Shown: one piece after another, positions 8,018-40,703 of the stretch
How positions within the stretch are numbered: position 1 is the stretch's first letter
How the letters are laid out: every line of letters begins with the position of its first letter
DNA from: Manihot esculenta
Taxonomy: Eukaryota; Streptophyta; Magnoliopsida; Malpighiales; Euphorbiaceae
DNA length: 64,000 nucleotides
Direction of reading: 5' to 3'
NCBI RefSeq assembly: GCF_001659605.2
Contig: NC_035162.2
Coordinates: 23,920,661-23,984,660, forward strand
Made by a program: the position numbers and the translations under genes
The notes under the pieces: generated by a model
Seen by the model: only the letters and a program-made list of their open reading frames with translations
What the model was told of the DNA's origin: nothing
Databases searched by the model: none

Positions 8018-8469
8018 TGTAATACCCGGCTAGACCCCGGTATCGGAATTCCTACGTTCCGGCGGATGTTCCGTTGGAAGTCGGGATTCGAGGATGTCGG
8101 AGCTTGCCCTAAGGGTATAAAAAAGGTTTTTAAGATGTTTTTGTTAAGTGTTTTTATCATGTTTGCATGTTTTGAGTTAAGAACATTAAGTTTTGAAATG
8201 AAAAGGCCAAGGGGACAAAAGCCAGGTTCGGCCGCCGAAGGTGAAGTTCGGCCGCCGAAAGTTGCATGGTTTCGCATGCACGTTAGGCCGCCGAAGGAAG
8301 AGTCGGTTGGCCACTACAAAAGCCCCTTTGCCCGAGACTTGAGTGTTAAACACTCTGTTTTTGGGTCAAAGGTAGGTTCAAGCTCTCCTTGGTGTGATTT
8401 CTCATGTTTTCCTCAAATCTTGCATGTTTTAACTTGATTTGAGCTTTGTTTTAGAGATTTTCTGTTACA
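8018..8469 (+). mobile_element. LTR E: compact 452-bp solo LTR or minimal element
   Basis: It starts TGTAATACCCGGCTAGA and ends CTGTTACA, like the 2.2-kb family LTRs, with TSD GAGTT. It has palindromic units TTCGGCCGCCGAA at about 8226-8260 and a TATA-like CTACAAAAG near 8314. It then stops after about 150 bp of leader: the intron region, the minisatellite and the conserved CTACGGGTCCCGG block are all missing. It may be a solo LTR of a separate short-LTR subfamily. It has no coding capacity. Confidence 0.85.
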
Positions 8470-10797: not shown

Positions 10798-13085
10798 TGT
10801 AACGACCCGGAAATCCGACCCGTTACCGGCGCTAGGATCCAGATCGGCTTAAGGCCGCCGGGACCCGTAGCAAGCCTACATACTTCCTGTAAACCTGTGG
10901 AATCCCATACATAACAACATATACATGATCTGTAAAAATTTTCTTTTTGTCTTATCCAAGCAAAACCTGTGCATGCACAAAATCATACATAAACCCCACA
11001 CTGGAGTCCTCATCAAATACTCCAATGGGATATCATCATCATACATAACAGCTTGGATAATCATGGTCATCAACATCATTACTCATTAAACACTCTGTAC
11101 ATAATGGGGATTCACACACCTCTAGGTCAAGCACTACTATAATCCTCAATACATCATCAAATCATTCATTACATTACATGGTCATAAATACTCATTACAT
11201 CATGTTCATGTCCACTACTATCTATTACAACATACATGACTTGACTTCACTCTAGCCGACTTCTCGATCTATCCTGTACCTGCAACTCTGGGGATAAAGG
11301 GAGTGGGGTGAGCTACTAGAGCCCAGTGAGCAGAAACTAAAAACATTTGTTTTAATTCCTCCATTTTTAGGTATATTATTATTCATTTTATTATTATTAT
11401 CATTTAACTTTTTCTTTCTTTTTCTTATTCATGCTTTCATGTATGCGCCATAACACAAACATTTCACAACAAGGATGAACTTGTCACCATTTAGCCCCTA
11501 TCTTTCTTACTTATACAGGCCGGGGGCGTAGAGCCGTAGCAGGCACACCCGGACTTCCATAATCAATCATAGTGCCAGGGGCGTAGAGCCGTAGCAGGCA
11601 CACCTGGACTCACATAGGCTATCGTGACATACAAGGGCTAATGGATCATTCAACATTCATCCACATCAACAACAAAGTATGCAATGCAACATATTCGTGA
11701 ATTCTAATGTAAACAACCTAATATATCTCATGGCATAATGATGCATGGGCAATGCTTTATGATTCATTCATTTATTCATTTACTTTAAAGCTTAAGGGGT
11801 TGTTCCACTCACTTGGTAACTGAAGCTTTAACAACGAACTCTGAACGACTATCTCACAACCGGGGGTCTCGGTTCCTCGGGTCCGAACCTACACAGGTGG
11901 ACTCAAATGAGGCACCAAACATACATGAACATGACTCTGAAATATTCCCCAAAAACCCCCCCTAAAACATCCTGAAAACATCACATGAAAACATGCAAGA
12001 AATGGCTGAACAGGGCACTTTCGGCGGCACCTTCGGCGGCCGAAAGTCCTGGACAGAGACGAAACTCAGGTAGGTTCGGCGGCACCTTCGGCGGCCGAAA
12101 GTGCCAGACAGAGACGAAAGTCTCTTTTCGGGGGCAACTTCGGCAGCCGAAAGGCCTGCCTCCCCAGCCATGTTCGGCGGCCGAAAGTACCTTCGGCTGC
12201 CGAACCTGGTTTCTGCCAAAGGGCAGAAACTTGGCTCCCTTAGCACATTTCGCCTCCAAACCTTCCAAACATGCATATTGTTCAACCAAAGCATGCATAC
12301 AAGTTCCTAGGGGCCTCAAACATGCATATACCCCATCTACAACACTTCAATCACACACAATCAAGCTACATTGTTCAAGAGTCATCAAAAACCCATAGGT
12401 AAAACATATACCCTAACATGCATTCTACCCCTTAAAACTTCATAAAACTTGTTTAAATCATACATTGAGCTTAAGATCGGCTCTTACCTCTTGAAGATCG
12501 AGGGTTGAGGAGATCTAAACTTGGAGATGGGAGAAGTTCCAACTTTTGGTCTCCAAGCTCCAAAACTCGTTCTAAGCTCCAAGATCTTCAAAAACAAAGT
12601 TATAAACTTGTAAAGATCAGGGAAAAAGGAAGGAAAACTCAAGATTGGGGAAGGATGGCGGAATGCTCACCTTGGCCGAAATGGGGAGAAAAAGCTCGCC
12701 CATTTTCGGCTAAGGGACCCTTTTATAGTGGCTGGCCAGACCACGTTCGGGGGCCGAATGTGCCTCCGCATCCATGCAAATGTTCGGCGGCCGAACATGA
12801 GGTTCGACGGCCGAACCTTGACTTCCCTCACTCATGCTTTCGGGGGCCTAACGTGCCTCCAAAAACGCATGCATGTTCGGCGGCCGAACTTGACTTTCGG
12901 CGGCCGAACCTGGGTTTCCCTCCAAGGACTTTTCATGCAAAAACTCATTTAATTTCTTACTTAAAAACATGAAATACATGAAAACATTTCATAAAATCAT
13001 AGTTTCACCCTTCTAGAGGTTTCCGACAACCGAGATTCCACCGGACGGTAGGAATCCCGATACCGGAGTCTAGCCGGGTGTTACA
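10798..13085 (-). mobile_element. Solo LTR G (2288 bp)
   Basis: This is a complete minus-strand LTR, read on the plus strand from TGTAACGACCCGG to TCTAGCCGGGTGTTACA, with TSD GGAAA and no internal region. The predicted leader intron is 11889-12487. The intronic palindromic cluster is at about 12020-12206 and the U3 cluster at about 12782-12908. It is the innermost insertion of the D-F-G nest, so it is younger than F. Confidence 0.93.
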
Positions 13086-15059
13086 GGAAAGACCAGGACC
13101 CCATTCTACGGCCTGGCACGGTAATGGGACTCGAAGACCAGGAGCCCAGAGGAGGCCCTGGGATAATGGTAAGAAATGTATATATGACAGGAAGACCAGG
13201 ACCCCATGCTACGGCCTGGCACAGAGTTAGCTTGGACTAATTGGTGACAAGTTCACCCAACCCCTATGTGAATTGTCTGTGTTATGATGCATCTCATTGG
13301 AGCATAGTGTTAATATGTTTTATAGTTCAACTCACTGGGCCTTTAGCTCACCCCTCTCCCTTTTACCCCCAGGCTTGCAGGTGCAGGATAGAAGAGGAAG
13401 TCGGTTAGAGTAAAGCTTGTTTATGTAATAGATAGAATGTGGACATGACAAATCTTAGAATGATGTAATGTAATAGTACAGTATAGTTATGTAATGATGT
13501 TTATGGATATTAGCGGTGTGCTTGACCATAGAATGTTATTATCCCTTTTAATACATGATCTTGAATATTTTATGTCAATTATGCAAACCAACTCAACATA
13601 TGTTATGTCACCCTTTTGGGGGCACTGATGAGATCCCACTGGGGGATCAAGGTTTATGATTTATGTATGTATAGTGCATGCACAGGTTGAGCTTGGTGTA
13701 TGAATGGAAAGAAAAGTTTTAAATTTTATGTATGTTGTTGATCATGTATGGGATTATTCAGGTTTACAGGTTATATGTCAGGCTTGCTACGGGTCCCGGC
13801 GGCCTTAAGCCGATCTGTATCCTAACGCCGGTAGCGGTTCGATTTTCGGGTCGTTACATCCGAACCTACACAGGTGGACTCAAATGAGGGACCAAACATA
13901 CTAGAACATAACTATAAACTACTCCCCAAAAACCCCCTAAAACATCATGAAACAACCATAGAAAAACATGCAAAGGAGGCCTGGACAGGGCACTTTCGGC
14001 GGCAGGTTCGGCGGCCGAAAGTCCCTCCAGAGCCGAAAGTCAGGCAGGTTCGGCGGCACCTTCGGCGGCCGAAACTCCCAGACAGAGATGAAAGTCTCCT
14101 TTCGGGGGCAAGCTTCGGCAGCCGAAAGGCTGCCTCCCCAGCCACGTTCGGCGGCCAAAAGTCCTTCGGCTGCCGAACCTGGTTTCTGCCAAAGGGTAGA
14201 AACTTGGCTCCCTTTGCACATTTCGCCTCCAAACCTTCCAAACATGCATCAAACCTATTCTACAACACACAAACACAAGCATACATGTTCCTAGGGGCCT
14301 CAAACCATCATAAACCCCATCTACAACACATCAAGCATCCACATTGTTCATGAACATACATATATACCAAAAAACATAACCATAACCTAAACATGCATTC
14401 TAACCCATAGATCTACTTAAAACTTACTTAAAACATGCAATGAGCTTAAGATCGGCTCTTACCTCTTGAAGATCGAGAGAGAGACGACCTAAACTCGAAG
14501 TTGGGAGAGATTGGGTTCTTGAACCTCCAAGCTCCAAAACTTTGCTCAAAAGCTCAAATCTTCAAAACAAAGTTAAAACAATTGAAAATCTTGAAAGATT
14601 TAGAGGAAGAACATCAAAGATTGGTGAGGGGCGGCGGAGAGCTCACCTTGGCCGAAAATGGGGAAAAAGCTCGCCCGTTTTCCGCTAAGGGACCCTTTTA
14701 TAGTGGCTGGCTAGACCATGTTCGGGGGCTGAATGTGCCTCCACATGCATGCCATGTTCGGCGGCCGAACTTGAGGTTCGGCGATCGAACCTGGACTTCC
14801 CTCACTTATGCTTTCGGGGGCCTAAAGCACTCCCGAAGTGCATGCATGTTCGGCGGCCGAACTTGGGGTTCGGCGGCCGAACCTGAGTTTTCCTCCAATG
14901 CTATTTTCATGCAAAAACTCATTTTATTTCATGCTCAAAACATAAAATACGTTAAAACATTTTATAAAAACATGGTTCTTACCCTCCTAGAGGCCTCCGA
15001 CATTCAAGATTCCACCAGACGGTAGGAATCCCGATACCGGAGTCTAGCCGGATATTACA

Positions 15060-20413: not shown

Positions 20414-22665
20414 TGTAACGACCCGAAAATCGGACCGCTCCCAGCGCTAGGATCCAGATCGGCTTAAGGTCGCCGGGACCCGTAGCAAGCCTGACATGGA
20501 ACCTGTAAACCTGTATAATCCCATACATGATCAACAACATACATAAAAAAATTAAAACTTTTCTTTCCAAATACATCAACCAAACTCAACCTGTGCATAT
20601 ACATTAACATAACATTGATCCCTCTGTGGGATCTCATCAGTGCCCCCAATGGGTGACATAACATAAGTTGAGTTGGTTTACATAAACATCATAAAAGTCT
20701 ATAAGATCATGTAATAAAAGGGATAACAACAATCTATGGTCAAGCACACCTCTAACATCCATAAACATCATCTCATTACATATCTATACTGATTAAGACA
20801 TTACATTACAATTCGATCATGTCCATTGCTAGCTATTACATAAACATGACTTCTTTACTCTATCCGGACTCTTGCTCTATACTGTACCTGCAAGCCTGGG
20901 GGTAAAGGGAGAGGGGTGAGCTAAAAGCCCAGTGAGCAGAACTATAAAACATATTAACACTATGCTTCAATGAAATGCATCATAACACAGACAATTCACA
21001 TAAGGGTTGGGTGAACTTGTCACCAATTAGTCCAAGCTAACTCTGTGCCAGGCCGTAGCATGGGGTCCTGGTCTTCCTGTCATAACATACATTACTTACC
21101 ATTGTCCCCGGGCCTCCTCTGGGCTCCTGGTCTTCGAGTCCCATAACCGTGCCAGGCCGTAGAATGGGGTCCTGGTCTTTCCTTACTCTGTGCCAGGCCG
21201 TAGAATGGGGTCCTGGTCTTCCTGTCATGGACTAATTGGGTCATCCAACATTCACCCACATCAACAACAATCGATGCAATGCGGCATATTCGTGAAAACT
21301 AATGCAATCATCCTATTGCATAATCATGATGCATGAAACATGATAAGACATTTAATTTCTCAATTTAAAAGATTAAGTTTAGTTCCACTCACCTCTGGCT
21401 GACTCTGACAACACCGAAGCAGCTGAACTCACTGCTGGGGTCCTCGGTTCCTCGGGTCCGAACCTACACAGGTGGACTCAAATGAGGGACCAAACATACT
21501 AGAACATAACTATAAACTACTCCCCAAAAACCCCCTAAAACATCATGAAACAACCATAGAAAAACATGCAAAGGAGGCCTAGACAGGGCACTTTCGGCGG
21601 CAAGTTCGGCGGCCGAAAGTCCCTCCAGAGCCGAAAGTCAGGCAGGTTCTGCGGCCGAAACTCCCAGACAGAGACGAAAGTCTCCTTTCGGGGGCAAGTT
21701 TTGGCAGCCGAAAGGCTGCCTCCCCAGCCACGTTCGGCGGCCGAAAGTCCTTCGGCTGCCGAACCTGGTTTCTGCCAAAGGGCAGAAACTTGGCTCCCTT
21801 TGCACATTTCGCCTCCAAACCTTCCAAACATGCATCAAACCTATTCTACAACACACAAACACAAGCATACATGTTCCTAGGGGTCTCAAACCATCATAAA
21901 CCCCATCTACAACACATCAAGCATCCACATTGTTCATGAACATACATATATACCCAAAAATATAACCATAACCTAAACATGCATTCTAACCCATAGATCT
22001 ACTTAAAACTTACTTAAAACATGCAATGAGCTTAAGATCGGCTCTTACCTCTTGAAGATCGAGAGAGAGACGACCTAAACTCGAAGTTGGGAGAGATTGG
22101 GTTCTTGAACCTCAAAGCTCCAAAACTTTGCTCAAAAGCTCAAATCTTCAAAACAAAGTTAAAACAATTGAAAATCTTGAAAGATTTAGAGGAAGAACAT
22201 CAAAGATTGGTGAGGGGCGGCGGAAAACTCACCTTGGCCGAAAATGGGGAAAAATCTCGCCCGTTTTCGGCTAAGGGACCCTTTTATAGTGGCTGGCCAG
22301 ACCACATTCGGGGGCCGAATGTGCCTCCGCATGCATGCCATGTTCGGCGGCCGAACTTGAGGTTCAGCGGCCGAACCTGGACTTCCCTCACTTATGCTTT
22401 CGGGGGCCTAAAGCACTCCCGAGGTGCATGCATGTTCGGCGGCCGAACTTGGGGTTTGGCGGCCGAACCTGGGGTTCGGCGGCCGAACCTGAGTTTTCCT
22501 CCAATGCTATTTTCATGCAAAAACTCATTTTCTTTCATGCTCAAAACATAAAATACGTTAAAACATTTTATAAAAACATGGTTCTTACCCTCCTAGAGGC
22601 CTCCGACATTTAAGATTCCACCGGACGGTAGGAATCCCGATACCGGAGTCTAGCCGGGTATTACA
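20414..22665 (-). repeat. 5' LTR of element D (2252 bp)
   Basis: It is bounded by TGTAACGACCCG (20414) and GCCGGGTATTACA (22665). The predicted leader intron is 21464-22048. Compared with the 3' LTR it has lost one palindromic half-unit near 21645 and gained one 21-bp unit near 22452-22487. The minisatellite lies at 21044-21235. Confidence 0.93.
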
Positions 22666-22670
22666 ATAGA

Positions 22671-24943
22671 AGGGCAAGCACAATAGGAGGAATCATGTCC
22701 ACTAGGATAGGATGTGGAGTCCTGTCTTCTATGATGATGATGTGAAATGCCATGATATTATGCATGTGCATTAATGTTATGCTATGTATGCTATGTATGT
22801 TGCAGGTTCATGTGTTTCCACCTGAACCGTATGGTGCTAATGATTGTTTGTTTGCTTGTGTGTTGCTCTTCAGAGGAGCCAGAATGCGAGGTGCTCGTCG
22901 ATCTGTGGAATCGACTGGAGTCCCATCTGAGAGGGAAGGTATGGACACCTTTCCCCCTGCTCTGCCAAGAGCGCAGTCGTGGGGAGTCAGCAGATGGGGA
23001 GCATCAAGGGACCTTGAAAGGTCTTTTGATGTAAGCAGAGAAGGGATGGCTCCAAGGAGGATGTCAGCTAGTATGAGGGAAGTAGAGATGGGTGTTCAGA
23101 GAAGGGATGTCAGTTTGGGAATCAGAGTGCCAGAGGAAGGCATGGGAGATTCTCAGGAGGATGCTTAGACTCAGGATTCCAGGATCTCAGGTTCAGGGGG
23201 GATTGATCCCTCTACTCTGAGTATAGCTGCCACAAGAGATAAAAGGTGGGGAAACACCACTAAGAAGTGAAGCAGAGGCCTCAGAAGGTCGAAGAAAAGT
23301 TTTAGAAGAATTTGAAGGCTAGTCTGGGTTTTGGTGGCTCAAGCTCTGGCTCAGGCAGTTCAAAATGCTTGAGGTGCGGTAGGCCGCACAAGGGAGTCTG
23401 TTTGGTGGGGACAACGGCATGTTTCAGATGAAGGCAGGAAGGACACATAGCACGTGAGTGTCCTACTGTGCCCCGGGTAGCACAGTCTCAGCCAGCGGCT
23501 TTAGCCATGTTTCAGGTTAGTGGTCGAGGCAGAGGAAGAGGGTCAGCCCCTCATTCCTCAGGTTTTCGTGGAGAAGGTCCGTCAGCTCCAGCTCGGATCT
23601 TCACCCAAGCTCAGCAAGAGACAGACACATCGAACACAGTGGTGCCAGGTACGCTCACTTTTGAATGTTCTGATGTGTATGTTTTGTGAACTCTGGTGGT
23701 TCTCTTTCTTTAGTTGCTCTAGGAGCCGTCGAGAGGTTGAGTTGATAGCTTTTGGGCTAGAGTGTTCTCTTTGGGTCAGTGGACTCACGTGTGATCCATC
23801 TGTGGCAGAGTCAGTCTGCCGGTTCAGTTCTGTGTCAGTTGAGGGTAGATGCCTTCCACTTGACTTTGAGGTCCTAGACTTGACTGTCTGGACGTCAATC
23901 GAGGGATGGATTGGTTTCTGCTCGTGGTGCTATCTTGGTCTGTAGAGACAAGGTAGTCAAGTTCAGAGGACAGGATGGCTCAGAGATAGTCTTCTGAGGG
24001 AACACAGTAGTGATGCCTAGAGGTTTGATGTCAGCCTGTCAGGTTCGTAGGGTGCGTAGGAGGGGTTGTCAGAGGGTTCGAGTTCTTGTTGAGAGTTTAG
24101 TAATCGGGTCGAGGAACCAGCCTCAGTGCCAGTTGTAGAGAGAGGTAGTAGTCAGAGTAGGGGCGAGACTTGGTAGAAAATGGGGTTTTATCCGACCTAG
24201 TACCTCACCCTGGATTGTTCTAGTGTGGTGGTGGGAAAAGAAGGGTGAATCCTCGAGACTTTGTAACGACTGTAAGCAGTTAAACAGGGTCACTACCAAG
24301 GGCAGGTATTCCCATGCAGGATTGATGATCTATTGGATCAGCTAGCAGGGGCTGGTTGTTTTCCTAGATAGATCTGAAATTCGGGTACTACCTGTGAGAG
24401 TTAGAGTTAGTTTTGGGTTAGCAGTGAGAAGAAGCCAGTTAGTAAAGATGAAGAGAAGAGTAAGGATCAGAGAAGCGCAGTGGAAGTCAGTGGAGTTCAG
24501 GAGTAGGTTGGGTATTGCTAAGGTGGTTCTTTTGGCAAGGGTGATTTCCCTATGGAGAGAATCCATTCGGATTTCCATGTTCCTATGTTATGGAAGTTCG
24601 TGTCAGATCCAAGTAGGGTTCATAAAGAACCAGAGGTGGAGATCTCAAGGGATCTCACCTATATTGAGCAGTTAGTGCGGATCATGGACACATAAGTCAG
24701 GAAGTTGAAGAACAAGGAATCCTGATGGTGTAAGTCCTTTGGAATCACCACAGTATGGAAAGGTGTGCTTGAGAAACCCGGGAGTTTATACTCCAGCAGT
24801 ACCTGTGTCTCTCTTGAGAGAGAGGTTTTAGGTTTTGCTTGCTGGTTTTGCTTGCATGTTCATGTATGATTGATGTTATGTTTTGAGATTGCCTGTTTGT
24901 TTGTGGAACATTCGGGGACAAATGTTCTTAAAGGGGGGAAGAA
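22671..24943 (+). pseudogene. Decayed gag-pol of element C
   Basis: The leader resumes after D. A gag start (MRGARR, 22884) follows a CTCTTCAG acceptor-like site, and the frame is open until a stop near 23166. The gag core is missing. Nucleocapsid remnants with a first knuckle ([13 protein letters not shown]) lie at about 23360-23460, where the second knuckle is lost. Protease-region and RT fragments ([13 protein letters not shown], [14 protein letters not shown]) follow at 23560-24380 with many stops and frameshifts. The frame then jumps to the integrase end and chromodomain region (24500-24830). RNase H and the integrase core are deleted. No complete protein can be made. Confidence 0.85.
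24929..24943 (+). other. Polypurine tract of element C
   Basis: TAAAGGGGGGAAGAA lies directly before the 3' LTR start at 24944. The preceding GAACATT/AATGTTC stem is one base pair shorter than in H and D. Confidence 0.85.
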
Positions 24944-25011
24944 TGTAATACCCGGCTAGATTCCGGCATAAAAATCCCTACCTTCCGGCGGAATCTCCGT
25001 TGGAATCGGGA

Positions 25012-25016
25012 GTTCT
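25012..25016. repeat. Target-site duplication of element H (GTTCT)
   Basis: GTTCT at 25012-25016 and 34862-34866 flank H exactly. Confidence 0.95.
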
Positions 25017-25374
25017 TGTAATACCCGGCTAGACTCCGGTATCGGAATTCCTACCGTCCGGTGGAATCTCGGATGTCGGAGACCTCTAGAAGGGTAGAAT
25101 CATGTTTTATAAAAATGTTTTAATGTGTTTTATGATTTTGAGTATGAAATTGAATAAGTTTTTGCATGAAAATAGCATTGGAGGAAAACCCAGGTTCGGC
25201 CGCCGAAGGTCAAGTTCGGCCGCCGAACATGCATGCGTTTTGGAGGCACGTTAGGCCCCCGAAAGCATGAGTTAGGGAAGTCAAGGTTCGGCCGCCGAAA
25301 GTCAGGTTCGGCCGCCGAACATTGCATGGATACGGAGGCACATTCGGCCCCCGAACGTGGCCTGGCCAGCCACC

Positions 25375-25381
25375 TATAAAA
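25375..25381 (+). promoter_or_regulatory. TATA box of H 5' LTR
   Basis: TATAAAA in the context CCACCTATAAAAGGGTCCC, 18 bp after the variant palindrome CATTCGGCCCCCGAACG. By position, transcription should start near 25405. The 3' LTR has the same box at 32981, pointing out of the element toward 36 kb. Confidence 0.75.
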
Positions 25382-25615
25382 GGGTCCCTTAGCCGAAAAT
25401 GGGCGAGCTTTTTCTCCCCATTTCGGCCAAGGTGAGCATTCCGCCATCCTTCCCCAATCTTGAGTTTTTCCTTCCTTTTTCCATGATCTTTACAAGTTTA
25501 TAACTTTGGTTTTGAAGATCTTTGAGCTTAGAACGAGTTTTGGAGCTTGGAGACCAAAAGTTGGAACTTCTCCCATCTCCAAGTTTAGATCTCCTCAACC
25601 CTCGATCTTCAAGAG

Positions 25616-26213
25616 GTAAGAGCCAATCTTAAGCTCAATGTATGATTTAAACAAGTTTTATGAAGTTTTAAGGGATAGAATGCATGTTAGGGCATATGTT
25701 GAACCTATGGGTTTTTTATGACTTTTTGAACAATGTAGCTTGATTGTGTGTGATTGAAGTGTTGTAGATGGGGTATATGCATGTTTGAGGCCCCTAGGAA
25801 CTTGTATGCATGCTTTGGTTGAAAAATATGCATGTTTGGAAGGTTTGGAGGCGAAATGTGCTAAGGGAGCCAAGTTTCTGCCCTTTGGCAGAAACCAGGT
25901 TCGGCAGCCGAAGGTACTTTCGGCCGCCGAACATGGCTGGGGAGGCAGGCCTTTCGGCTGCCGAAGTTGCCCCCGAAAAGAGACTTTCGTCTCTGTCTGG
26001 GACTTTCGGCCGCCGAAGGTGCCGCCGAACCTACCTGAGTTTCTTCTCTGTCCAGGACTTTCGGCCGCCGAAGGTGCCGCCGAAAGTGCCCTGTTCAGCC
26101 ATTTCATGCATATCTCTATGTGATATTTTCAGGATGTTTTAGGGGGTTTTTGGGGAATATTTTAGAGTTATGTTCAGGTATGTTTGGTCCCTCATTTGAG
26201 TCCACCTGTGTAG
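25616..26213 (+). other. Predicted intron in the H LTR leader (598 bp)
   Basis: It starts AAGAG|GTAAGAG and ends CCTGTGTAG|GTTCGG. The flanking sequence CTCGATCTTCAAGAG + GTTCGGACCCGAGG is found joined in both LTRs of element C (6555/6556 and 35308/35309), where only this segment is missing. Equivalent segments with the same borders exist in A, B, both D LTRs, F, G and I. It contains the array of TTCGGC-N-GCCGAA inverted repeats. Splicing is inferred from sequence only. Confidence 0.7.
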
Positions 26214-27258
26214 GTTCGGACCCGAGGAACCGAGGACCCCAGCAGTGAGTTCAGCTGCTTCGGTATTGTCAGAGTCAGCCAGAGGTGAGTGGAACTATAA
26301 CTTAATCTTTTAAATTAAATGTTTTATCATGTTTCATGCATCATGATTATGCAATAGGATGATTGCATTAGTTTTCACGAATATGCCGCATTGCATAAAT
26401 TGTTGTTGTTGTGGGTGAATGTCGGATGACCCAGTTAGTCCAAGACAGGAAGACCAGGCCCCATGCTACAGGCCTGGCACAGAGTAAACAAGTCCAGGCC
26501 CCAGTCTACAGGCCTGGCACAGAGTAAGGCACGGTTATGGGACTCGAAGACCAGGAGCCCAGAGGAGGCCCTGGAAAATGGTAAGTAATGTATGTATGAC
26601 AGGAAGACCAGGACCCCATGCTACGGCTTGGCACAGAGTTAACTTGGACTATTTGGTGACAAGTTCACCCAACCCTTATGTGAATTGTTTGTGTTATGAT
26701 GCATTTCATAGAGCATGGTGTTGATGTGTTTTAATAGCTCTACTCACTGGGCTTTTAGCTCACCCCTCTCCCTTTACCCCCAGGCTTGCAGGTACAGTAT
26801 AGTGCAGGAGTCCGGATAGAGTAAAGAAGTCATGCTTATGTAATAGCTAGCAATGGACATGATCAAATTGTAATGTAAAGTATTAATCAGTATAGTTATG
26901 AGACGATGTTTATGGATGTTAGAGGTGTGCTTGACCATAGATTGTTGTATCCCTTTTAAACATGATCTTAGAGATTTATATGATGTTTATGTATACCAAC
27001 TCAACAGATGTTATGTTGCCCATTGGGGGCACAGATGAGATCCCACAAAGGGATCAATGTTATGTTAATGTTATGCACAGGTTGAGTTTGGTTGATGCTT
27101 ATGGAAAGAAAAGTTTTAATTTTTATGCATGTGGTTGATCATGTATGGGATTATACAGGTTTACAGGTTATATGTCAGGCTTGCTACGGGTCCCGGCGGC
27201 CTTAAGTCGACCCGGATCCTAGCGCCGGTAGCGGTCCGATTTTCGGGTCGTTACAGAA

Positions 27259-27271
27259 TGGTATCAGAGCC
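27259..27271 (+). other. Primer binding site of element H
   Basis: TGGTATCAGAGCC begins three bases after the 5' LTR. It is complementary to the 3' end of plant initiator Met tRNA. Confidence 0.9.
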
Positions 27272-27439
27272 CTAGGTTCATATGGTCGGACCTAGAGTGT
27301 CGGGCTCATAGAGGTTATAAAAGGTCAAGCACAATAGGAAAAGATCATGTCCACTAGGATAGGATGTGGAGTCCTGTCTTGCATGATGATGTGAAATGCC
27401 ATGACTTTATGCATGTGCATTAATGATATGCTATGATAT

Positions 27440-30400
27440 GTGATGGATGTGATGCGGGTTCATGTGTGCCCACATGAACCATATGATGCTAATATTGCTT
27501 GTGATGCGTACTGTTTTTCAGAAAACAGGATGAGAGGAACTCGTCGATCAGCAAGGTTGACTGGAGTACCACCTGAGGATGGGGGCATGAGCGCCCGTCC
27601 TCCTACATTGCCTAGGGCAATGTCAAGCAGGTCCAACAGGGACAGAGTAGCAAGAGACCCTAGAAGGTCTCTGGATCTGGGTAGAAGCAGATCAGTCAGA
27701 GGAACAGTTCAGGGAGGAGCGTCAGAGGATATGGGGGATGATATGGAAGTAGAACAGAGGAGGGATGGCAGTTTGGGAGTCAGTATGTCAGAAGAAGGGA
27801 TGGGAGAATCCCAAGGAGGCACTCAGGCCTCGGGATTTGTACAGCCACCTCACTACCCACATTTCTCACAACATCCCGGGTATTCGATGGGAGGTACATC
27901 GGATTACCCTAGTTTCACCCCTTATCCCACACAGATGCCATACCCACCTTACTACCCACCATACTCTCAGTACCCAATGTATCCACCTCCACCCTACTAT
28001 CCAAATCCAGCAAACCCTACCTCAGAAAATGTTGTACCACCTCCACCACCTGCAGAACCAGCAGCCCCAGTTGCTCAACCACCTAGACCTAGCTCAGTCA
28101 GTGGGAGCAAGGTTAAGATGACAGACTATATGAAGCTGGGTGCTCCCCAGTTTGAAACCGGTAATGATCCGTTCGTGTACTTGGAGCGGGTCAAGGCAAT
28201 TACAGATGAGATAGGGGCGGATGACAGTAGAGCCATTCAGATGGCCGGGTTCACGCTTAAGTGCAAAAAGGCACGGGAGTGGTTCAAAAATTATGTGAAC
28301 CCGAGAGTGGACAACATGACTTGGGAAGAGTTTGCAAATGAGTTTGCAGGATGGGCTTTCCCTGATAGTTCAAGGGAATTGAAGATGATAGAATTCGAGC
28401 AGTTGAGGCAAACTGATGACATGAGTGTAGACGAATATACCGACAGATTTATGGAGTTGCTGCCATTTGCAGGGCAAGACCTTAGCACAGACCAGAAGAA
28501 GTCGAGAAGGTATATCATGAAGCTCCATCCCAGGTATTCCTCCTTGGTACAGTCGGCAGATAGAGAGAGTTTTCACGCCATAGTAGATATGGCTAGGAGA
28601 ATGGAAGCTAGTGCCATCATTCAGGGGACAGTTAAGCAGACAGTGGCGCAAGCTTCTGGTTCTAAAACTTCGGGTGGGGGAAAGTTAGATCCCTCTACCC
28701 TTAGTGCAGCAGCTTCAGGCAGCAAGAGATGGGGGAAACCCAAGGGTAAGAAGAATAAGTTCTGGAACAAGGTTAAGTCCAGTCTGGGATTTGGAAGTGG
28801 CTCAAGCTCTGGTGCGGATAATGTAGTTTGTGCGAGGTGTGGTAGACCACACAAGGGAGTATGTCGGTTTGGGACGAACGCCTGCTTCAGATGTGGTCAG
28901 GAGGGGCATATGGCTCGAGACTGTCCAAGAGCGGCCCCGATGGCTCAGTCCCAGCAGACAGCTTCAGGCAGTGTAGCGCAGCCAGCAGCTCCAGCCATGA
29001 CTCAGGCCAGTGGCAGAGGCAGAGGGAGAGGAGCAGCCTCTTCTTCAGCGGGTTTCAGAGGTGAAGGTCCATCAGCCCCAGCACGGATCTTCACAATGAC
29101 ACAGCAGGAGGTAGACGCATCCAACACCGTGGTGGCAGGTAATCTCGTCATTGGATGTTCGGATGTATATGCATTGATGGACCCTGGTGCATCTCATTCT
29201 TTTATTGCCCCGAGGGCCGTAGAGAGGTTGGGATTGATGACTTCTGGGTTAGAGTGTCCTCTCTGGGTCAGTGGACCCAAGTGTGATCCATCAGTGGCAG
29301 AGTCAGTCTGTCAGTGTAGTCCAGTTTTTGTTGAGGGGAGATGCATGTCCGCCGACCTAGTGGTTCTAGATTTGACAGATTTTGACGTCATTCTAGGGAT
29401 GGACTGGTTATCTACCCATGGTGCTACCTTGGACTGCAGGGACAAGGTAGTCAGGTTCAGAGGTCAGGATGGATCAGAGGTCGTCTTCAGAGGAGACAGG
29501 AGGGGTACACCTAGAGGTATGATCTCAGCTCTTCAGGCTCGTAGGTTGCTTAGGAGGGGATGTCAGGGGTACTTGGCTCATGTGAGAGAGCTTAATAGTC
29601 AGGTTAGAGAGCCCGCCTCAGTGCCAGTGGTTAGAGAGTTCTTAGATGTGTTCCCAGACGAGCTGCCAGGTTTACCACCTGCTAGGGAGATAGAGTTCGA
29701 GATAGAACTGATGCCTGGAACCCGACCGATCTCTATCCCTCCCTACAGGATGGCGCCAGCAGAATTGAAAGAGCTGAAGGAGCAGTTACAGGAGCTGGTA
29801 GACAAGGGCTTCATCCGACCGAGTACCTCACCCTGGGGTGCTCCGGTTTTGTTTGTGAGAAAGAAGGATGGATCCCTTAGACTTTGTATCGACTACAGGC
29901 AGTTGAACAAAGTCACTACCAAGAATAAGTACCCATTGCCAAGGATCGACGATCTATTCGACCAGCTAGCAGGAGCGGGTTGTTTCTCCAAAATAGATCT
30001 GAGATCGGGGTACCACCAGTTGAGGATCAGGGAAGAGGACGTTCCAAAGACGGCTTTCAGGACCAGATATGGGCATTTTGAGTTCCTTGTAATGCCGTTC
30101 GGGTTAACTAACGCCCCTGCAGCATTCATGGACCTCATGAACAGAGTGTTTAGCCAGTACCTGGATCACTTTGTTATTGTCTTCATAGATGATATCTTAG
30201 TGTATTCCAGGAGTGCAGAGGAACATGCCCATCATCTGAGGTTGGTTCTACAGACCTTGAGGGAGCATGGCTTGTATGCCAAGTTCTCCAAGTGTGAGTT
30301 CTGGCTAAGGAGCATTTCGTTCTTGGGGCATGTAGTGTCAGAGAATGGTATAGAGGTAGACCCCGGGAAGACAGAGACTGTGGCTAACTGGCCTAGACCC

Positions 30401-32524
30401 ACTTCAGTGACAGAGATCAGGAGTTTCTTGGGTTTGGCAGGTTACTACAGGAGGTTCGTTCAGGACTTCTCAAAGATAGCAGCTCCTCTGACCAGACTAA
30501 CCAGGAAGAATCAGAAGTTTCTGTGGACCGACCAATGCGAGGAGAGTTTTGAAGAGCTCAAGAAGAGGTTGACTTCAGCACCAGTTTTAACTCTGCCATC
30601 TAGTGGAGAGGACTTTACAGTCTTTTGTGATGCGTCTCGTGTGGGACTGGGTTGTGTGCTTATGCAGAATGAAAGGGTGATTGCTTATGCTTCTAGACAG
30701 CTAAAGAAGCATGAGTTGAATTACCCCACACATGACCTTGAGATGGCAGCAGTAATCTTTGCACTCAAGATGTGGAGGCATTACCTCTATGGGGTAAAAT
30801 GTGAGATCTTCACCGATCATAAAAGCCTGCAGTACATCCTGAGTCAAAGAGATTTGAATTTGAGACAGAGGAGATGGGTAGAGTTGCTGAGTGACTATGA
30901 TTGCAAGATTCAGTATCATCCGGGTAAGGCGAATGTTGTGGCAGACGCCCTAAGCCGGAAGTCACTAGGCAGTCTATCCCACATCACGGCAGAGAGGAGA
31001 CCAGTGGTGAAGGAGTTTTACAAGCTCATTGAGGAAGGTCTACAGTTGGAGTTATCTGGTACAGGTGCCTTGGTTGCTCAGATGAAAGTGACACCCGTGT
31101 TTCTGGAACAGGTGGCTCAGAAACAGCATGAGGACCCAGAATTAGTGAAGATTGCCAGGACTGTTCAGTCAGGCAAGGACAGTGAGTTCATATTTGACAG
31201 TAAGGGGATCCTCCGCTATGGGAGTCGTTTATGTGTACCAGATGACATTGGGCTAAAAGGAGACATTATGAGAGAGGCTCATAATGCAAGATACAGCATT
31301 CACCCCGGAGCCACCAAAATGTATCAGGATCTGAAGAAAGTTTATTGGTGGCCAGCTATGAAGAGAGAAGTGGCACAGTTTGTGTCCGCCTGCGAAGTAT
31401 GTCAGAGGGTGAAGCTGGAACATCAGAAGCCGGCTGGAATGCTTAACCCGCTACCTATTCCAGAGTGGAAATGGGAGAATATAGCTATGGACTTCGTAGT
31501 GGGGTTACCGGCGACGTCCAACAGATTGGACTCCATATGGGTGATTGTGGACAGACTCACCAAATCTGCTCACTTTATCCCTGTCAGGAGTGGCTATTCT
31601 GTGGACAAGTTGGCGCAGGTGTACATTGATGAGATAGTCAGACTGCATGGGGTTCCTGTTTCTATAGTGTCAGATAGAGGGCCCCAGTTCACCTCCAGGT
31701 TTTGGCGGAGTCTGCAGGATGCCATGGGTACTAGGTTGGATTTCAGCACTGCCTTCCATCCACAGACAGACGGACAGTCAGAGAGGACCATCCAGACCAT
31801 AGAAGATATGCTCAGAATGTGTGTGCTGGACTTTGGCGGTTCTTGGAGGCAGCATCTACCTTTGGTGGAGTTTGCCTACAATAACAGTCATCATGCTAGC
31901 ATCGGGATGGCTCCATATGAAGCTTTATATGGAAGGAAGTGCAGATCACCTGTTTGCTGGGAAGAGGTAGGAGAGAGGTCCTTAGCAGGACCCGAGCTAG
32001 TAGAGATCACCAGCAGGGTGGTGCCCATGATCAGAGAAAGAATCAAGACAGCTGCAAGTAGACAGAAGAGCTATGCAGACATCCGCAGAAGGCTAGTAGA
32101 GTTTCAGGAGGGGGATCTGGTATTGCTCAAGGTGTCTCCAATGAAAGGAGTGGTTCGGTTCGGGAAGAAGGGTAAACTGGCTCCGCGGTACATCGGACCC
32201 TTCGAAGTCTTGCAAAAGATTGGGAATGTATCGTACAAGCTGGATTTACCTGCTTCAATGGAGAGAATCCATCCGGTTTTCCATGTTTCTATGTTGAGAA
32301 AGTTCGTGTCAGATCCGGGCAAGGTTCTTAGTGAGCCTGATGTGGAGATCCAAGAGGATCTCACCTATGTTGAGCAGCCAGTGCGGATTCTTGACACTCA
32401 GATCAGAAAGTTAAGAAACAAGGAAATCCCAATGGTGAAAGTCCTTTGGAACCACCACAATATTGAAGAATGCACCTGGGAGACACGGGAGTCTATGCTC
32501 CGGCAATACCCTCATCTCTTTTAA
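27440..32524 (+). CDS. gag-pol polyprotein of element H
   Basis: A single frame of 1694 residues encodes the capsid and enzymes of a Ty3/gypsy retrotransposon. Residues about 31-500 are gag (start probably M31, MRGTRR, at 27530), with a Pro/Tyr-rich spacer (130-200), the gag core (about 260-360) and zinc knuckle [14 protein letters not shown] (482-495), preceded by a CX2CX3HX3C motif (464-475). The aspartic protease has D581 (DPGASHSF). RT has FIDDILVYS (915-923). RNase H has D1064, E1101, D1126 and D1169. Integrase has the H1281/H1288/C1318/C1321 zinc finger and D1412/E1448 spaced D-X35-E, with D1351 as first acid. Residues 1645-1694 look like the C-terminal chromodomain of Tekay/Del chromoviruses. 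Gag and pol are fused without stop or frameshift, so processing must be proteolytic. Confidence 0.95.
27515..27521 (+). promoter_or_regulatory. Conserved splice-acceptor-like site before gag
   Basis: TTTTCAG lies after a T-rich tract and eight bases before the ATG at 27530. The same arrangement precedes the gag start in D (TTTTTCAG), C (CTCTTCAG) and A (TTTTTCAG), although the sequence further upstream differs. Joined to a donor in the LTR it would bring the cap close to the gag ATG and remove the upstream ATGs and primer site. Use of the site is inferred. Confidence 0.5.
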
Positions 32525-32585
32525 GGTTAGTCTCTATGTGTTTTAAGTGTATGTTATGTTATTTGCTATGCATGTGTTAGTTGAG

Positions 32586-32622
32586 GAACATTCGGGGATG
32601 AATGTTCTTAAGGGGGGGAGAA
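32586..32622 (+). other. Hairpin plus polypurine tract of element H
   Basis: A perfect 8-bp stem (GAACATTC, loop GGGGAT, GAATGTTC; 32586-32607) is followed by CTTAAGGGGGGGAGAA, the polypurine tract, ending at the 3' LTR start (32623). D has the same stem with loop GGGGAC; C has a 7-bp version. Confidence 0.8.
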
Positions 32623-34861
32623 TGTAATACCCGGCTAGACTCCGGTATCGGAATTCCTACCGTCCGGTGGAATCTCGGATGTCGGAGACCTCTAGAAGGG
32701 TAGAATCATGTTTTATAAAAATGTTTTAATGTGTTTTATGATTTTGAGTATGAAATTGAATAAGTTTTTGCATGAAAATAGCATTGGAGGAAAACCCAGG
32801 TTCGGCCGCCGAAGGTCAAGTTCGGCCGCCGAACATGCATGCGTTTTGGAGGCACGTTAGGCCCCCGAAAGCATGAGTTAGGGAAGTCAAGGTTCGGCCG
32901 CCGAAAGTCAGGTTCGGCCGCCGAACATTGCATGGATACGGAGGCACATTCGGCCCCCGAACGTGGCCTGGCCAGCCACCTATAAAAGGGTCCCTTAGCC
33001 GAAAATGGGCGAGCTTTTTCTCCCCATTTCGGCCAAGGTGAGCATTCCGCCATCCTTCCCCAATCTTGAGTTTTTCCTTCCTTTTTCCATGATCTTTACA
33101 AGTTTATAACTTTGGTTTTGAAGATCTTTGAGCTTAGAACGAGTTTTGGAGCTTGGAGACCAAAAGTTGGAACTTCTCCCATCTCCAAGTTTAGATCTCC
33201 TCAACCCTCGATCTTCAAGAGGTAAGAGCTGATCTTAAGCTCAATGTATGATTTAAACAAGTTTTATGAAGTTTTAAGGGATAGAATGCATGTTAGGGCA
33301 TATGTTGAACCTATGGGTTTTTTATGACTTTTTGAACAATGTAGCTTGATTGTGTGTGATTGAAGTGTTGTAGATGGGGTATATGCATGTTTGAGGCCCC
33401 TAGGAACTTGTATGCATGCTTTGGTTGAAAAATATGCATGTTTGGAAGGTTTGGAGGCGAAATGTGCTAAGGGAGCCAAGTTTCTGCCCTTTGGCAGAAA
33501 CCAGGTTCGGCAGCCGAAGGTACTTTCGGCCGCCGAACATGGCTGGGGAGGCAGGCCTTTCGGCTGCCGAAGTTGCCCCCGAAAAGAGACTTTCGTCTCT
33601 GTCTGGGACTTTCGGCCGCCGAAGGTGCCGCCGAACCTACCTGAGTTTCTTCTCTGTCCAGGACTTTCGGCCGCCGAAGGTGCCGCCGAAAGTGCCCTGT
33701 TCAGCCATTTCATGCATATCTCTATGTGATATTTTCAGGATGTTTTAGGGGGTTTTTGGGGAATATTTTAGAGTTATGTTCAGGTATGTTTGGTCCCTCA
33801 TTTGAGTCCACCTGTGTAGGTTCGGACCCGAGGAACCGAGGACCCCAGCAGTGAGTTCAGCTGCTTCGGTATTGTCAGAGTCAGCCAGAGGTGAGTGGAA
33901 CTATAACTTAATCTTTTAAATTAAATGTTTTATCATGTTTCATGCATCATGATTATGCAATAGGATGATTGCATTAGTTTTCACGAATATGCCGCATTGC
34001 ATAAATTGTTGTTGTTGTGGGTGAATGTCGGATGACCCAGTTAGTCCAAGACAGGAAGACCAGGCCCCATGCTACAGGCCTGGCACAGAGTAAACAAGTC
34101 CAGGCCCCAGTCTACAGGCCTGGCACAGAGTAAGGCACGGTTATGGGACTCGAAGACCAGGAGCCCAGAGGAGGCCCTGGAAAATGGTAAGTAATGTATG
34201 TATGACAGGAAGACCAGGACCCCATGCTACGGCTTGGCACAGAGTTAACTTGGACTATTTGGTGACAAGTTCACCCAACCCTTATGTGAATTGTTTGTGT
34301 TATGATGCATTTCATAGAGCATGGTGTTGATGTGTTTTAATAGCTCTACTCACTGGGCTTTTAGCTCACCCCTCTCCCTTTACCCCCAGGCTTGCAGGTA
34401 CAGTATAGTGCAGGAGTCCGGATAGAGTAAAGAAGTCATGCTTATGTAATAGCTAGCAATGGACATGATCAAATTGTAATGTAAAGTATTAATCAGTATA
34501 GTTATGAGACGATGTTTATGGATGTTAGAGGTGTGCTTGACCATAGATTGTTGTATCCCTTTTAAACATGATCTTAGAGATTTATATGATGTTTATGTAT
34601 ACCAACTCAACAGATGTTATGTTGCCCATTGGGGGCACAGATGAGATCCCACAAAGGGATCAATGTTATGTTAATGTTATGCACAGGTTGAGTTTGGTTG
34701 ATGCTTATGGAAAGAAAAGTTTTAATTTTTATGCATGTGGTTGATCATGTATGGGATTATACAGGTTTACAGGTTATATGTCAGGCTTGCTACGGGTCCC
34801 GGCGGCCTTAAGTCGACCCGGATCCTAGCGCCGGTAGCGGTCCGATTTTCAGGTCGTTACA
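32623..34861 (+). repeat. 3' LTR of element H (2239 bp)
   Basis: Same length as the 5' LTR and identical except for three bases seen by eye. The predicted leader intron here is 33222-33819. It is followed by TSD GTTCT and the rest of the C 3' LTR. Confidence 0.95.
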
Positions 34862-36437
34862 GTTCTGAAGATGCCAGAGGCTTCTAGAGGGGTAAAATGT
34901 ATTTTTTAAAATGTTTTTACTGATTTTATGGTTTTAAATGGAAAAAGAATTGAGTTTTGAAAAGAAAAGACCAAGGAGGCATTTGCCAGGTTCGGCCGCC
35001 GAAAGTGAAGTTCGGCCGCCGAACATGGGAAGGCTTCGGGAGCGCCTTTGGCCTCTGAAAGTCTTGTTTGAACGAGCCAAGGTTCGGCCGCCGAACATGC
35101 ATGAGTTTAGGGGGCACGTTAGGCTGCCGAAGGTCGTTGACCAGGCCACTTATAAAGAGCCCTCAGATCGGAAATGGGCGAGTTTTCTCTCCATTCTCGA
35201 GTTCAGAGTTTTCAAGCTTAGATCTAAGTTTTGGGAGTTTGGAGACCCAAGGAGTAGTTTCCTCCTATCTCCAAGTTAGGGATCACACCAACCCTCGAGC
35301 TCCAAGAGGATTGGACCCGAGGCCATCAGTGTTAGCAGTTGCAGAGTCGGTCCAGCGTCTGCCAGAGGTGAGTAGAACTAACTTAATCTTTTATTTTACG
35401 AAATCAAATGCCTAAAGCATGTTCATGCATCATGTTTATATGTAATAGGTTGATTGCACTAGTTACACGAATATGACGCATTGCATAATATGATGAATGT
35501 GATGATGTGGATGGACCAGGGCGACCCCACTAGCCCTAGAGATGTTGTAAGACCTGGCCGGGCCAGGCATACACATACAGATATTGTAAGACCTGGCCGG
35601 GCTAGGCATACTGAGGTTTTAAGACCTGGCCGGGCCAGGCATACTGACACTGGAGGGAGTTTTGGGGTTAGGTCCAATCCGTTATGTGAATTGTTTGTGC
35701 TGTGGCGCATTTCATGAAAGCATGTAATTAATGAACTGTTTTCTTTGTTTCTACTCACTGGGCTTTTTAGCTCACCCCTCTCCCCTAACCCCAGTGTTGC
35801 AGGTAGAAGGTCGACCGGGAAGTCTCAAGAGTTAAGGTTGTGCTTATGTAATAGATTAGAGTTGTGTGGACATGTAATGTGAATTGAGATAATGGATTGT
35901 AAGATAATGAAATGTAATGTAATGTAAAGTAAAGTAGAGTTATATTTATGGATTAGAACTGTGCTTGGCCCTAAGACTTGGCTAGTCCCTTTTTAATACA
36001 TGATGTATGTAATGTTTTAGATGTTGAGTTGTGTTTGAACTAAACTGGTGGCATGTGTTGTTTACCACGCTAGTGTTTGATGAGGACTCTAGTGGAGGTC
36101 TTATGTTTGTGGTTTTGATGCATACACAGGTTAGGTTCTAGTTCTTTGGATGTGACTCCGGTTTGATGTATGTTATGTTGACCCAGCTAGAGTCTTGATG
36201 AGGGCTCTAGTAAGGGGTTTTTGATGTTTTCAGTTATGTTGCATACAGGTCAAGCTCGGTATTTACATCATATGTTTAAGTTTTATGTTAATGTTTTGAT
36301 CATGTATGGGATTTGACCAGGTGATAGGAGGTATGTTTGGCTTGCTACGGGTCCCGGCGGCCTTAAGCCGATCTGGATCCTAGCGCCGGTGGCGGTTCGG
36401 GCCGTTACAGAGGGGTATCGATTTTCGGGTTGTTACA

Positions 36438-36442
36438 ATCTA
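36438..36442. repeat. Target-site duplication of element C, right copy (ATCTA)
   Basis: Identical to 5996-6000. Confidence 0.9.
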
Positions 36443-38557: not shown

Positions 38558-40703
38558 TGTAATACCCGGCTCGAGTCCGGCATCGGAATTCCTGTAGTCC
38601 GGTGGAATCTCGGGTGTCGGAACCCTCGAGAAGGGTAATGCATATGTTTTCCACGGTTTTTCACTTGTTTTCATGTTTTGAAGTGTTACAAGACTTGAGT
38701 TTTAAAAGAAAAGCAACAAGGGAGAAATGCAAAGGTTCGGCCGCCGAAGGTCACTTTAGGCCGCCGAACATTGCATGGTTGCGGCTTCACGTTCGGCTGC
38801 CGAAGGTGGTCTGGCCAGCCACCTATAAAAGGGCCAAAGGTCGGTGAGAGGAGGGTATTTTCTCCTCCACTTGCAGCCAGAGGTGAGTTTCAGCCTCTCC
38901 ACGTTGACTTTCATATTTTCCATGATTTTCATCAAATCTTTCAAGAGTTTTAAGAGTTTTGGTGATTTATGAAGGTTTTGAGCAAAAGAACCAAGTTTTG
39001 AAGCTTGGAGCTTTGGAAGCACTTTTCTTCCTATCTCCACGTTAGGATCCTTCATCCTTAAGTTCTTTAAGAGGTAAGTGAAGATCCTGAGCTTCTTTGA
39101 GGATTTTGAAAGGTTTTATGAAGTTTGTATGGGTAGTATGCATGTTTAGGTTTAGGTGAGGTTTTTGGTGATTTGTGGTGTTCCAGCATGGTTCAGTGTT
39201 ATGTGCTAGGTTTGTTTGGGGTTTTAGGGTAGTTTTAGACCCCTTTGTGCATATATATGTGTATATGCTAGTTGGGAGTAGTTGATATGCATGTTTGTAG
39301 GTTTTTGGGCAAAGTTTGCATGAAACAGAGCAGGGTTCTGCCCTTCGGGCAAAACCAGGTTCGGCCGCCGAAGGAAGGTTCGGCCGCCGAACCCTTTGTG
39401 GAGGCAGTTCGGCTGCCAAAGGTTGCCCCCGAAAGCTAGGCTTTCGGTTTAGAAAGGGACTTTCGGCCGCCGAAAGAGGGAGTTTGGCCGCCGAAAGTGT
39501 GTGAGTTTCGTCTCTGGACGAGACCTTCGGCCGCCGAAGGTGCCGCCGAACATGCATGAGTTTCGTCTCTAGAGCAGGGTTTCGGCCGCCGAATCTGCCG
39601 CCGAAAGTGCCCTGTCCAGCTTTCTTTTGCATGTTTTATGTGATGGTTTGAGGATTGTTTAGGGGGGTTTTTGGGGAGTTTCTTAGAGATGTGCTTGAGT
39701 GAGTTTAGTCCCTTATTTGAGTCCACCTGTGTAGGAACGGACCAGAGGAATCAGGGAGGTCAGCAGTGAGTCCAGTGTCAGAACCTGCAGAGTCAGTTCA
39801 GAGCTAACCAAAGGTGAGTGGAATTTAACTTAATGTTTTAATCTGAGAACGGAATATTTTATCATGCTTCATGCATCATGAATATGCTATAGGGTGAGTG
39901 CATTAGTGTACACAAAGATGATGCATTGCATTTATCCTTGTACTTGGCATTGCTCCTTGTACATTGTTTATGTGAGACGGCACGGACTTCGTGAGGATTC
40001 ATTAGCCCTCAGAGGAAAGACCTGGAACAGCCCTACGGGGACCAGGCACAACACAAAGACCTGGAACAGCCCTACGGGGACCAGGCAAATGGTACTCCGG
40101 TACCCCAGATGAGATAGAGGGATTTTTGATCCGTCCGGCCGAGGTGATGTGCTTATATGTTGCATTCCATGAGAGCATGTTTTATCACCTGTTATTTGAC
40201 TATTCTACTCACTGGGCTATAGTAGCTCATCCCTCTCCCCTAACTCCAGTTGTGCAGGTTCAGAGGTCAGAGAGAACTCAGCAGGGTACAGGAAGAGTAC
40301 AGAGTTTTGTAATAGCTAGTGTGGACATGTAATTGTATAGAGATAATGTATAGAAGGGTGCTTGATTCATAAGACTTGTAATCCCTTTGTGGAGTCACAT
40401 GATCAGTTTATGTATGTTTCTTTATTGTTGTATGTTTATGAGCAAAACCAGGCTTAACATGATGAGTTTGATCCGCCTAGGGCCATGAGGAGCTCTAGTA
40501 GGGATTAGTAGAGCCCAGAGAGAGTGCATGCACAGGTTAAGCCTTGGAATGAAGAAAAGTTTTATGTTTTTACAGCAATTGTATGATCATGTATGGGATT
40601 TCACAGGTCTACAGACAGGATAGCAGGCTTACTACGGGTCCCGGCGACCTTAAGTCGATCTGGATCCTAGTGCCGGTGGCAGTTCGGTTTCCGGGCTGTT
40701 ACA
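38558..40703 (+). mobile_element. Solo LTR I (2146 bp), divergent subfamily
   Basis: It runs from TGTAATACCCGGCTCGAG to ...TTTCCGGGCTGTTACA with TSD TAAGC and no internal region. It is clearly more diverged from H than F or G are. It keeps palindromic units at about 38734-38805, TATAAAA at 38824, the predicted leader intron 39074-39734 (GAG|GTAAGTG ... TGTGTAG|GAACGG) with its own palindromic cluster (39358-39605), and a two-copy 37-bp minisatellite at 40017-40088 with a GACCTGG...CCAGGC core. Confidence 0.93.

Follow-up and report, generated by a model that had tools for sequence, protein, structure and literature searches.

We identified intron-like segments in the leader of a family of Ty3/gypsy retrotransposons in Manihot esculenta, together with long terminal repeats (LTRs) from which exactly these segments are missing. 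The explanation we favor, with a probability of roughly 93%, is that the leader introns are spliced and that spliced RNA has been packaged and reverse transcribed repeatedly, giving rise to intronless LTRs. The initial annotation of the window (the whole 64,000-nt stretch of DNA analysed) had proposed that spliced leader RNA was reverse transcribed. This is by far the best explanation of an exact junction found at 113 places in the genome, of the loss of two neighbouring introns together and of the recurrence of such losses. The genome records exact single and double losses in scattered copies, in paired LTRs and between target duplications; from this record we infer the splicing itself and the use of spliced RNA as template.

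The window consists of nested Ty3/gypsy LTR elements. One of these, element H (25017-34861), is inserted in the 3' LTR of element C, with the target duplication GTTCT at 25012-25016 and 34862-34866, and its two LTRs are 99.9% identical. Its features are as follows (slashes within motifs mark splice boundaries):

25017-27255, + strand: 5' LTR of H, TGTAAT...TTACA, intron-bearing (self-comparison and LTR ends)
25375-25380, + strand: TATA box CCTATAAAAGG
25432-25517, + strand: leader intron 0 of the 5' LTR, 86 nt, CCAAG/GTGAGC...TTTTGAAG/A
25616-26213, + strand: leader intron 1 of the 5' LTR, 598 nt, CAAGAG/GTAAGAG...TGTGTAG/G
27259-27270, + strand: primer-binding site TGGTATCAGAGC
27530-32524, + strand: gag-pol open frame, 1664 aa counted from the gag ATG
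32623-34861, + strand: 3' LTR of H, with intron 1 inside at 33222-33819 (self-comparison)

Transcription of H was taken to start at about 25405, estimated as the TATA box plus about 30 nt. According to Pfam, the open frame contains gag, protease, RT, RNase H and integrase in a single frame and in Ty3/gypsy (Metaviridae) order. Matches to gag, RVP_2, RVT_1, RNase H and Integrase_H2C2 were all above the cut-offs, the rve match scored 28.9 bits, below its cut-off of 32.6, and a Chromo match at residues 1647-1693 of the 1694 in the frame (E = 8.1e-5) scored 22.9 bits, below the Pfam cut-off of 25.1. Judged from its sequence, the family is Ty3/gypsy and appears chromovirus-like, and it may belong to the Tekay/Del clade. 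The Ty3/gypsy hallmarks are present, namely TG...CA LTRs, a 5-bp target duplication and a tRNA primer-binding site, which we take to be of the initiator tRNA-Met type. The best protein relative is from Manihot esculenta (75% identity), and one motif search and one RT-region search of viral contigs returned no relatives.

Element D and its insertions appear to lie inside the internal region of C. F is a solo LTR within the D 3' LTR, with the target duplication TCCGA, and G is a solo LTR within F. The D 3' LTR also holds a 452-bp LTR-like piece at 8018-8469, TGTAATACCC...TGTTACA, with the target duplication GAGTT; it has a TATA-like box and a donor-like CAAAG/GTAGGT and is far shorter than the other LTRs. 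A direct repeat (60475-61217 and 63220-64000, 85% identical) reaches the window end and is perhaps another LTR pair.

Nine intron-like segments with matching borders had been listed in the initial annotation, and on re-inspection all of the coordinates and borders were correct. They are GTAAG...TAG segments in element sense, 513-662 bp long, one each in A, B, F, G and I and two each in D and H. Those outside H are:

3339-3851, - strand: intron 1 of the A LTR, 513 nt
4611-5272, - strand: intron 1 of the B LTR, 662 nt
9859-10511, + strand: intron 1 of the F solo LTR, 653 nt
11889-12487, - strand: intron 1 of the G solo LTR, 599 nt
13866-14462, - strand: intron 1 of the D 3' LTR, 597 nt
21464-22048, - strand: intron 1 of the D 5' LTR, 585 nt
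39074-39734, + strand: intron 1 of the I solo LTR, 661 nt

The distance from the TATA box (in A and B a degenerate version of it) to the intron-1 donor downstream is about 240-250 nt, so that intron 1 would fall in the transcribed part of the LTR. All nine window copies have a branch-point-like CTCAT or CTTAT about 20 nt before the intron-1 acceptor. U2-type intron features are present (GT...AG ends, a plant-like 5' splice site and the branch-point-like motif, scored with approximate matrices), and the H intron-1 acceptor scores only rank 11 of 137 AG sites. Intron 1 of I is about 70% identical to that of the H/D/F/G/B group, and the upstream flank is 60-64% identical. Because intron 1 is conserved about as well as its flanks, it may hold enhancer-like sequence, which could aid its retention. 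The near-palindrome TTCGGCNGCCGAA occurs in H six times in U3 and five times in intron 1 and has no copies in the other parts of the H LTR or in the internal region, with up to 2 mismatches allowed throughout; the copies span 25195-25355 and 25900-26072 and resemble a regulatory array common to the two parts. Antisense open frames of intron 1 (eight copies checked, 97-187 codons from stop to stop) were set aside. Their lengths vary, the three tested matched no Pfam family, and we read them as a by-product of GC-rich repeats.

Element C has both LTRs without these introns. Its target duplication, ATCTA, is found at 5996-6000 and 36438-36442, and the first part of its 3' LTR, 24944-25016, precedes the H insertion.

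6001-7680, + strand: C 5' LTR without introns 0 and 1; junctions 6453/6454 and 6555/6556
34862-36437, + strand: main part of the C 3' LTR; junctions 35206/35207 and 35308/35309

Both LTRs are joined at the intron-1 splice edges, and the flanks align across the gap. C had been described as lacking only intron 1. The joins at 6555/6556 and 35308/35309 are indeed exact, but about 83 nt just upstream are also gone, and comparison with loci L034 and L035 shows this to be a second GT...AG segment. The homologue of H intron 0 (83-84 nt) is absent from the C 5' LTR, from L013 (C11) and from L011 (C7) when each is compared with intron-bearing relatives. With gaps placed without a splice rule, the optimum for the C 5' LTR against H, F, the D 3' LTR, G and B starts exactly at the intron-0 donor and ends two bases before the acceptor, tied in H and G with another optimum; it falls elsewhere for the C 5' LTR against I, the D 5' LTR and A, and for the C 3' LTR against all eight copies. 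In our alignments the placement of intron 0 is settled by the close relatives L034 and L035, which share C's own exon 1b at 98%. The C 5' LTR is 96.1% identical to L034 over 459 aligned nt, and the only two gaps of at least 8 nt (83 and 806 nt) can be placed as CTCAG/GTGAGT...TTTGAAG/AGTTTTC and CAAGAG/GTAAGTG...TGTGTAG/GAT. The C 3' LTR shows two extra short gaps against L034, of 20 and 11 nt. The near relatives of C form a separate intron-bearing subfamily, represented by L034 and L035, and the earlier view of C as a sister of H is not upheld.

A search with the C exon region gave 40 scored matches, of which 8 span the junction and 32 match from exon 2 onward only. The former are both C LTRs and three other LTR pairs, on C7, C11 and C15. 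Introns 0 and 1 are present in all 22 of the exon-2-only matches inspected (L017-L038, of the 32), one of them having a single altered base at the intron-0 donor; L036 and L037 carry intron 1 with a variant acceptor. The C7 and C11 elements are without both introns and the C15 element is without intron 1 only. The internal region of C (22666-24943) is short, about 2.3 kb, and degenerate, and the C7, C11, C15 and L042 elements are similarly short-spaced; the C subfamily looks non-autonomous.

The 640-Mb genome from which the window comes was searched for both forms of the LTR. The exact exon 1b-exon 2 junction occurs at 113 places (up to 2 mismatches) and the intron-bearing 3' border at 36,143, with 0 places for the reversed-pattern control in each case. 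The intronless share is roughly 0.3% of recognisable LTRs, a rough figure since the two patterns differ in length. No place in the genome has a junction that still carries TGTAG, the final five bases of the intron. The alignment of LTRs suggested in the initial annotation thus bears out a junction shared by the intronless copies. With the exon-intron-exon region of H as query, the intron was kept in all 40 long matches, both H LTRs included.

The gap in C could instead have been caused by an ordinary deletion, through slippage between AGG repeats at the borders and later copying to both LTRs. AGG is indeed found at both intron-1 borders, and the two C LTRs differ from each other by ordinary short-repeat changes (11 bp in exon 2 and 20 bp in the U3 repeats). 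Loss from both LTRs had been taken as a sign of splicing; one splicing event would clear both, but an inherited deletion would be common to both as well. What tells splicing apart from an inherited deletion is the precision of the loss, its double nature and its recurrence. Two neighbouring GT-AG segments have been lost, the same junction recurs in scattered lineages, and no junction was found that keeps TGTAG. Such edges also have a low chance of arising at random. Among all distinct deletions of 50-1000 nt in five intron-bearing LTRs, with approximate splice matrices and equivalent placements at the shared AG/G counted once, the fraction having GT-AG edges that score as well is 6e-6 to 3e-5. 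We consider a deletion highly improbable.

Many of the intronless LTRs are paired. Among the 100 junctions listed of the 113, both C LTRs included, 68 form 34 same-strand pairs 1-50 kb apart. Seventeen of these have whole-element spacing (13 at 6.87-7.05 kb and 4 at 3.98-4.20 kb); the other 17 are spaced 1.4 to 42.7 kb, and some of them may be nested elements or chance neighbours. Several intron-bearing H-like pairs are about 7.6 kb apart, longer by about the intron length. As judged by eye, the 5-bp target duplications match in all 8 of the L044-L072 pairs for which both flanks were available, a set without L059/L060, and in the C7, C11 and C15 elements, making 11 pairs examined in all. They match also in the unpaired L048 and L049 and in the intron-bearing L042 element.

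Aligned with an intron-bearing relative, some intronless copies have no gaps except the introns, as do L013 against L038, L015 against L022 and L011 against L032. L079 aligns with window G with a single gap of 599 nt, exactly the counterpart of the G intron (97.5% over 798 nt), and L086 shows against F intron 1 plus two further gaps of 20 and 91 nt.

A tree of U3 and exon 1 was made from 90 copies, 55 without intron 1 and 35 with it, the latter sampled out of about 36,000. It leaves out L056 and L070 (duplicates of L009 and L011), L001/L002 (the window H LTRs), L039-L043, L074 and L060, for which the neighbour's junction 1.4 kb away was taken instead, as well as 19 further listed junction places and 13 beyond the list, unless these are among loci already included. 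The initial annotation had asked whether intronless copies form one clade, and the tree contains several. The 55 intronless LTRs are scattered, with C beside L034/L035, L079/L080 beside window G, L086/L087 beside F and D, C7 beside L032, C11 beside L031/L038 and C15 within the C family. The tree has 25 maximal intronless clades and needs 13 changes under Fitch parsimony with regain allowed; once nodes with support below 95 have been collapsed and intronless clades sharing a node are counted as one, 14 intronless groups are left. These loss counts are rough, given the midpoint rooting, the thin sampling and the chance of regain or template switching. By TATA-to-junction spacing, intron 0 is also gone in 17 of the 55 (no TATA was found in four). 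For eleven of the 55, from six elements (C, C7, C11, C15, L079/L080 and L086), the sample includes an intron-bearing relative at least 94% identical in U3 and exon 1. For many others the nearest such relative is at 70-90%, and many have none above 80%. The copying of spliced RNA is supported, but what had been put forward as one recorded splicing event looks recurrent, given the several clades and these six elements.

Some copies have an exon-2 side that is nearest to a different subfamily. Since LTR parts recombine in the family, template switching may have passed the junction on to some of the intronless copies. Carried further, one or a few losses could have been spread by switching between co-packaged RNAs, and most intronless lineages would then not be independent. 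L052 and L062, whose upstream and downstream sides are nearest to different subfamilies, fit this picture, as does a single ten-LTR intronless clade formed by L046/L047, L050-L053, L062/L063 and L073/L075. However, L079/L080 match G on both sides of the junction (97.8 and 97.6%), L015/L016 likewise match intron-bearing relatives on both sides (94.8-96.2 and 97.0%), and the double-loss copies C, C7 and C11 differ in the type of exon 1b, which is located between the two junctions. We regard such spread as an unlikely origin for most of the lineages.

The window-only tree does not fix the deep placement of A, C and I or the root of the intron state, and this uncertainty would allow the intronless LTRs to be ancestral, with the introns gained. 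Against this, young intronless elements sit among intron-bearing copies, and the divergent A and I have intron 1 at the same place. The LTR pairs L050/L051, L052/L053, L062/L063 and L077/L078 are each 100.0% identical over compared stretches of up to 420 bp. Intron gain is very hard to reconcile with this pattern, and repeated loss by way of spliced RNA is preferred.

L048 is another LTR without both introns. Of 40 scored matches to it, 35 fit its exon 1a at 98-99% and then stop; 33 of these resume in exon 1b (77-99%) about 83 nt further on, which indicates that intron 0 is present in them. The same 33 stop at the end of exon 1b, which fits intron 1 and is no proof of it, since L048 has exon 2 of another type. 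One further place, G000:C6:12488438-12488742, matches L048 at 86%; exons 1a and 1b are contiguous there, and the match ends at the intron-1 site. This copy may have lost intron 0 alone, the reverse of the C15 element.

The leader appears to continue beyond intron 1 as follows:

26214-26284, + strand: predicted exon 2, 71 nt, followed by the conserved donor GAG/GTGAGT at 26285
26285-27521, + strand: predicted last leader intron, spanning the LTR end and the primer-binding site, from the donor at 26285 to the acceptor TTTTTCAG at 27521
26783-26792, + strand: inner acceptor and donor CCCCCAG/GCTTGCAG/GTACAG, which could split the last intron

The donor at 26285 is at the same column in 8 of 9 aligned copies, and in A it is nearby. 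Of 30 junction loci, 28 have GTGAGT, the exceptions being L044 and L057; so do five of the six LTRs belonging to the C7, C11 and C15 elements, the sixth reading GTGGGT. A pyrimidine-rich acceptor block near 26791, CTCACCCCTCTCCC...CCCCAG/..TTGCAG/GT, is conserved in 7 of 7 copies. The spacing CCCCAG/NNTTGCAG/GT at 26783-26792 is kept in seven LTRs and may mark an 8-nt microexon or a site of recursive splicing. A third acceptor lies just before the gag ATG, as TTTTTCAG in H, D and A and as CTCTTCAG in C; the pattern was found in the C7 and C15 elements and L042 and not in the C11 element. A genome search for the spliced exon 2-gag junction gave 0 exact matches. The 46 matches with one to three mismatches, mostly TTCAG-AG-AAAACAGG, look like genomic acceptor variants (1 match for the reversed control). 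Counts of splice-like sites over the whole leader were not above dinucleotide shuffles in three of four LTRs, and a clear excess of donors was seen in H only (11, with a shuffle mean of 5.6), so raw site counts are not used as evidence.

No ATG occurs in the 196 nt of assumed exons in H, and its whole leader contains 95; random placement of three such windows gave no ATG in 0.6% of trials. Ten of the 11 window LTRs are without ATG in the assumed exons. The other is A, which has two in an unsplit exon 1 and is without a recognisable intron-0 donor. The argument from upstream ATGs hangs on the assumed start, and in H and C an ATG stands a few nt before it.

If the primer-binding site lies inside one last intron, as these predicted sites suggest, fully spliced RNA could not be primed, which would explain why introns 0 and 1 have been lost and the last donor kept. 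The leader would then be a switch that sorts RNA by splice state. Fully spliced RNA would be a clean gag mRNA, RNA keeping the last intron would be the sole template, losses of introns 0 and 1 would be harmless leaks, and the last intron would never be lost by reverse transcription. We give this model even odds.

For the losses themselves, we propose that the LTR promoter would be followed by a leader with spliceosomal introns. These would be intron 0, about 85 nt long, and intron 1, whose length ranges over about 500-840 nt among the copies inspected; at least one further donor would follow. Replication would proceed mostly from intron-keeping RNA, and the introns would persist in the great majority of LTRs. 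Occasionally, RNA spliced for intron 1, and sometimes for intron 0 too, would be packaged and reverse transcribed. The R-U5 of both new LTRs would be copied from the 5' end of this RNA, leaving both without the intron, and such events would have happened several times independently in this genome.

In retroviruses such as HTLV and the foamy viruses, a splice donor lies in R and the unspliced RNA is the genome. That donor pairs with far-downstream acceptors, whereas here whole introns would lie inside the LTR. Among plant elements, the accessible parts of the literature describe splicing for Ogre, BARE1, EVD, CRR and Bagy2 (PMC6317226, PMC3735527, PMC12786077) and for sunflower elements (PMC7730604), as exceptions to a general absence of introns from plant LTR elements (PMC12786077). 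In these accounts Ogre (Ty3/gypsy, Tat lineage) has an intron between gag-pro and pol and is classed as a non-chromovirus, whereas the present family appears chromovirus-like and has its predicted introns in the LTR and leader. The Ty1/copia elements BARE1 and EVD, as described, resemble it in having spliced and unspliced RNA pools with different uses, for Gag (PMC3735527, PMC12786077). In BARE1 the intron falls within part of the gag ORF, in EVD the protease domain is spliced out, and no LTR intron is described in the parts of those papers available to us. Excision of an artificial intron from Ty demonstrated an RNA intermediate in 1985, as described in PMC12786077; that intron was engineered, whereas here the introns are natural and their losses are recorded in the genome. 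Our search of the open literature, judged by titles and abstract openings and with subscription papers mostly outside its reach, found no description of introns inside an LTR or of their natural loss.

Intronless and intron-bearing copies of one family could be mistaken for different families, and annotation of such elements calls for caution. LTR introns can, it appears, persist although every cycle risks their loss. The family would provide a natural, genome-scale record of how frequently LTR-element RNA that has been spliced gets packaged and reverse transcribed, and near relatives would serve as its controls. How retroelements keep mRNA and genome apart, an old question, would thereby become directly testable in a plant.
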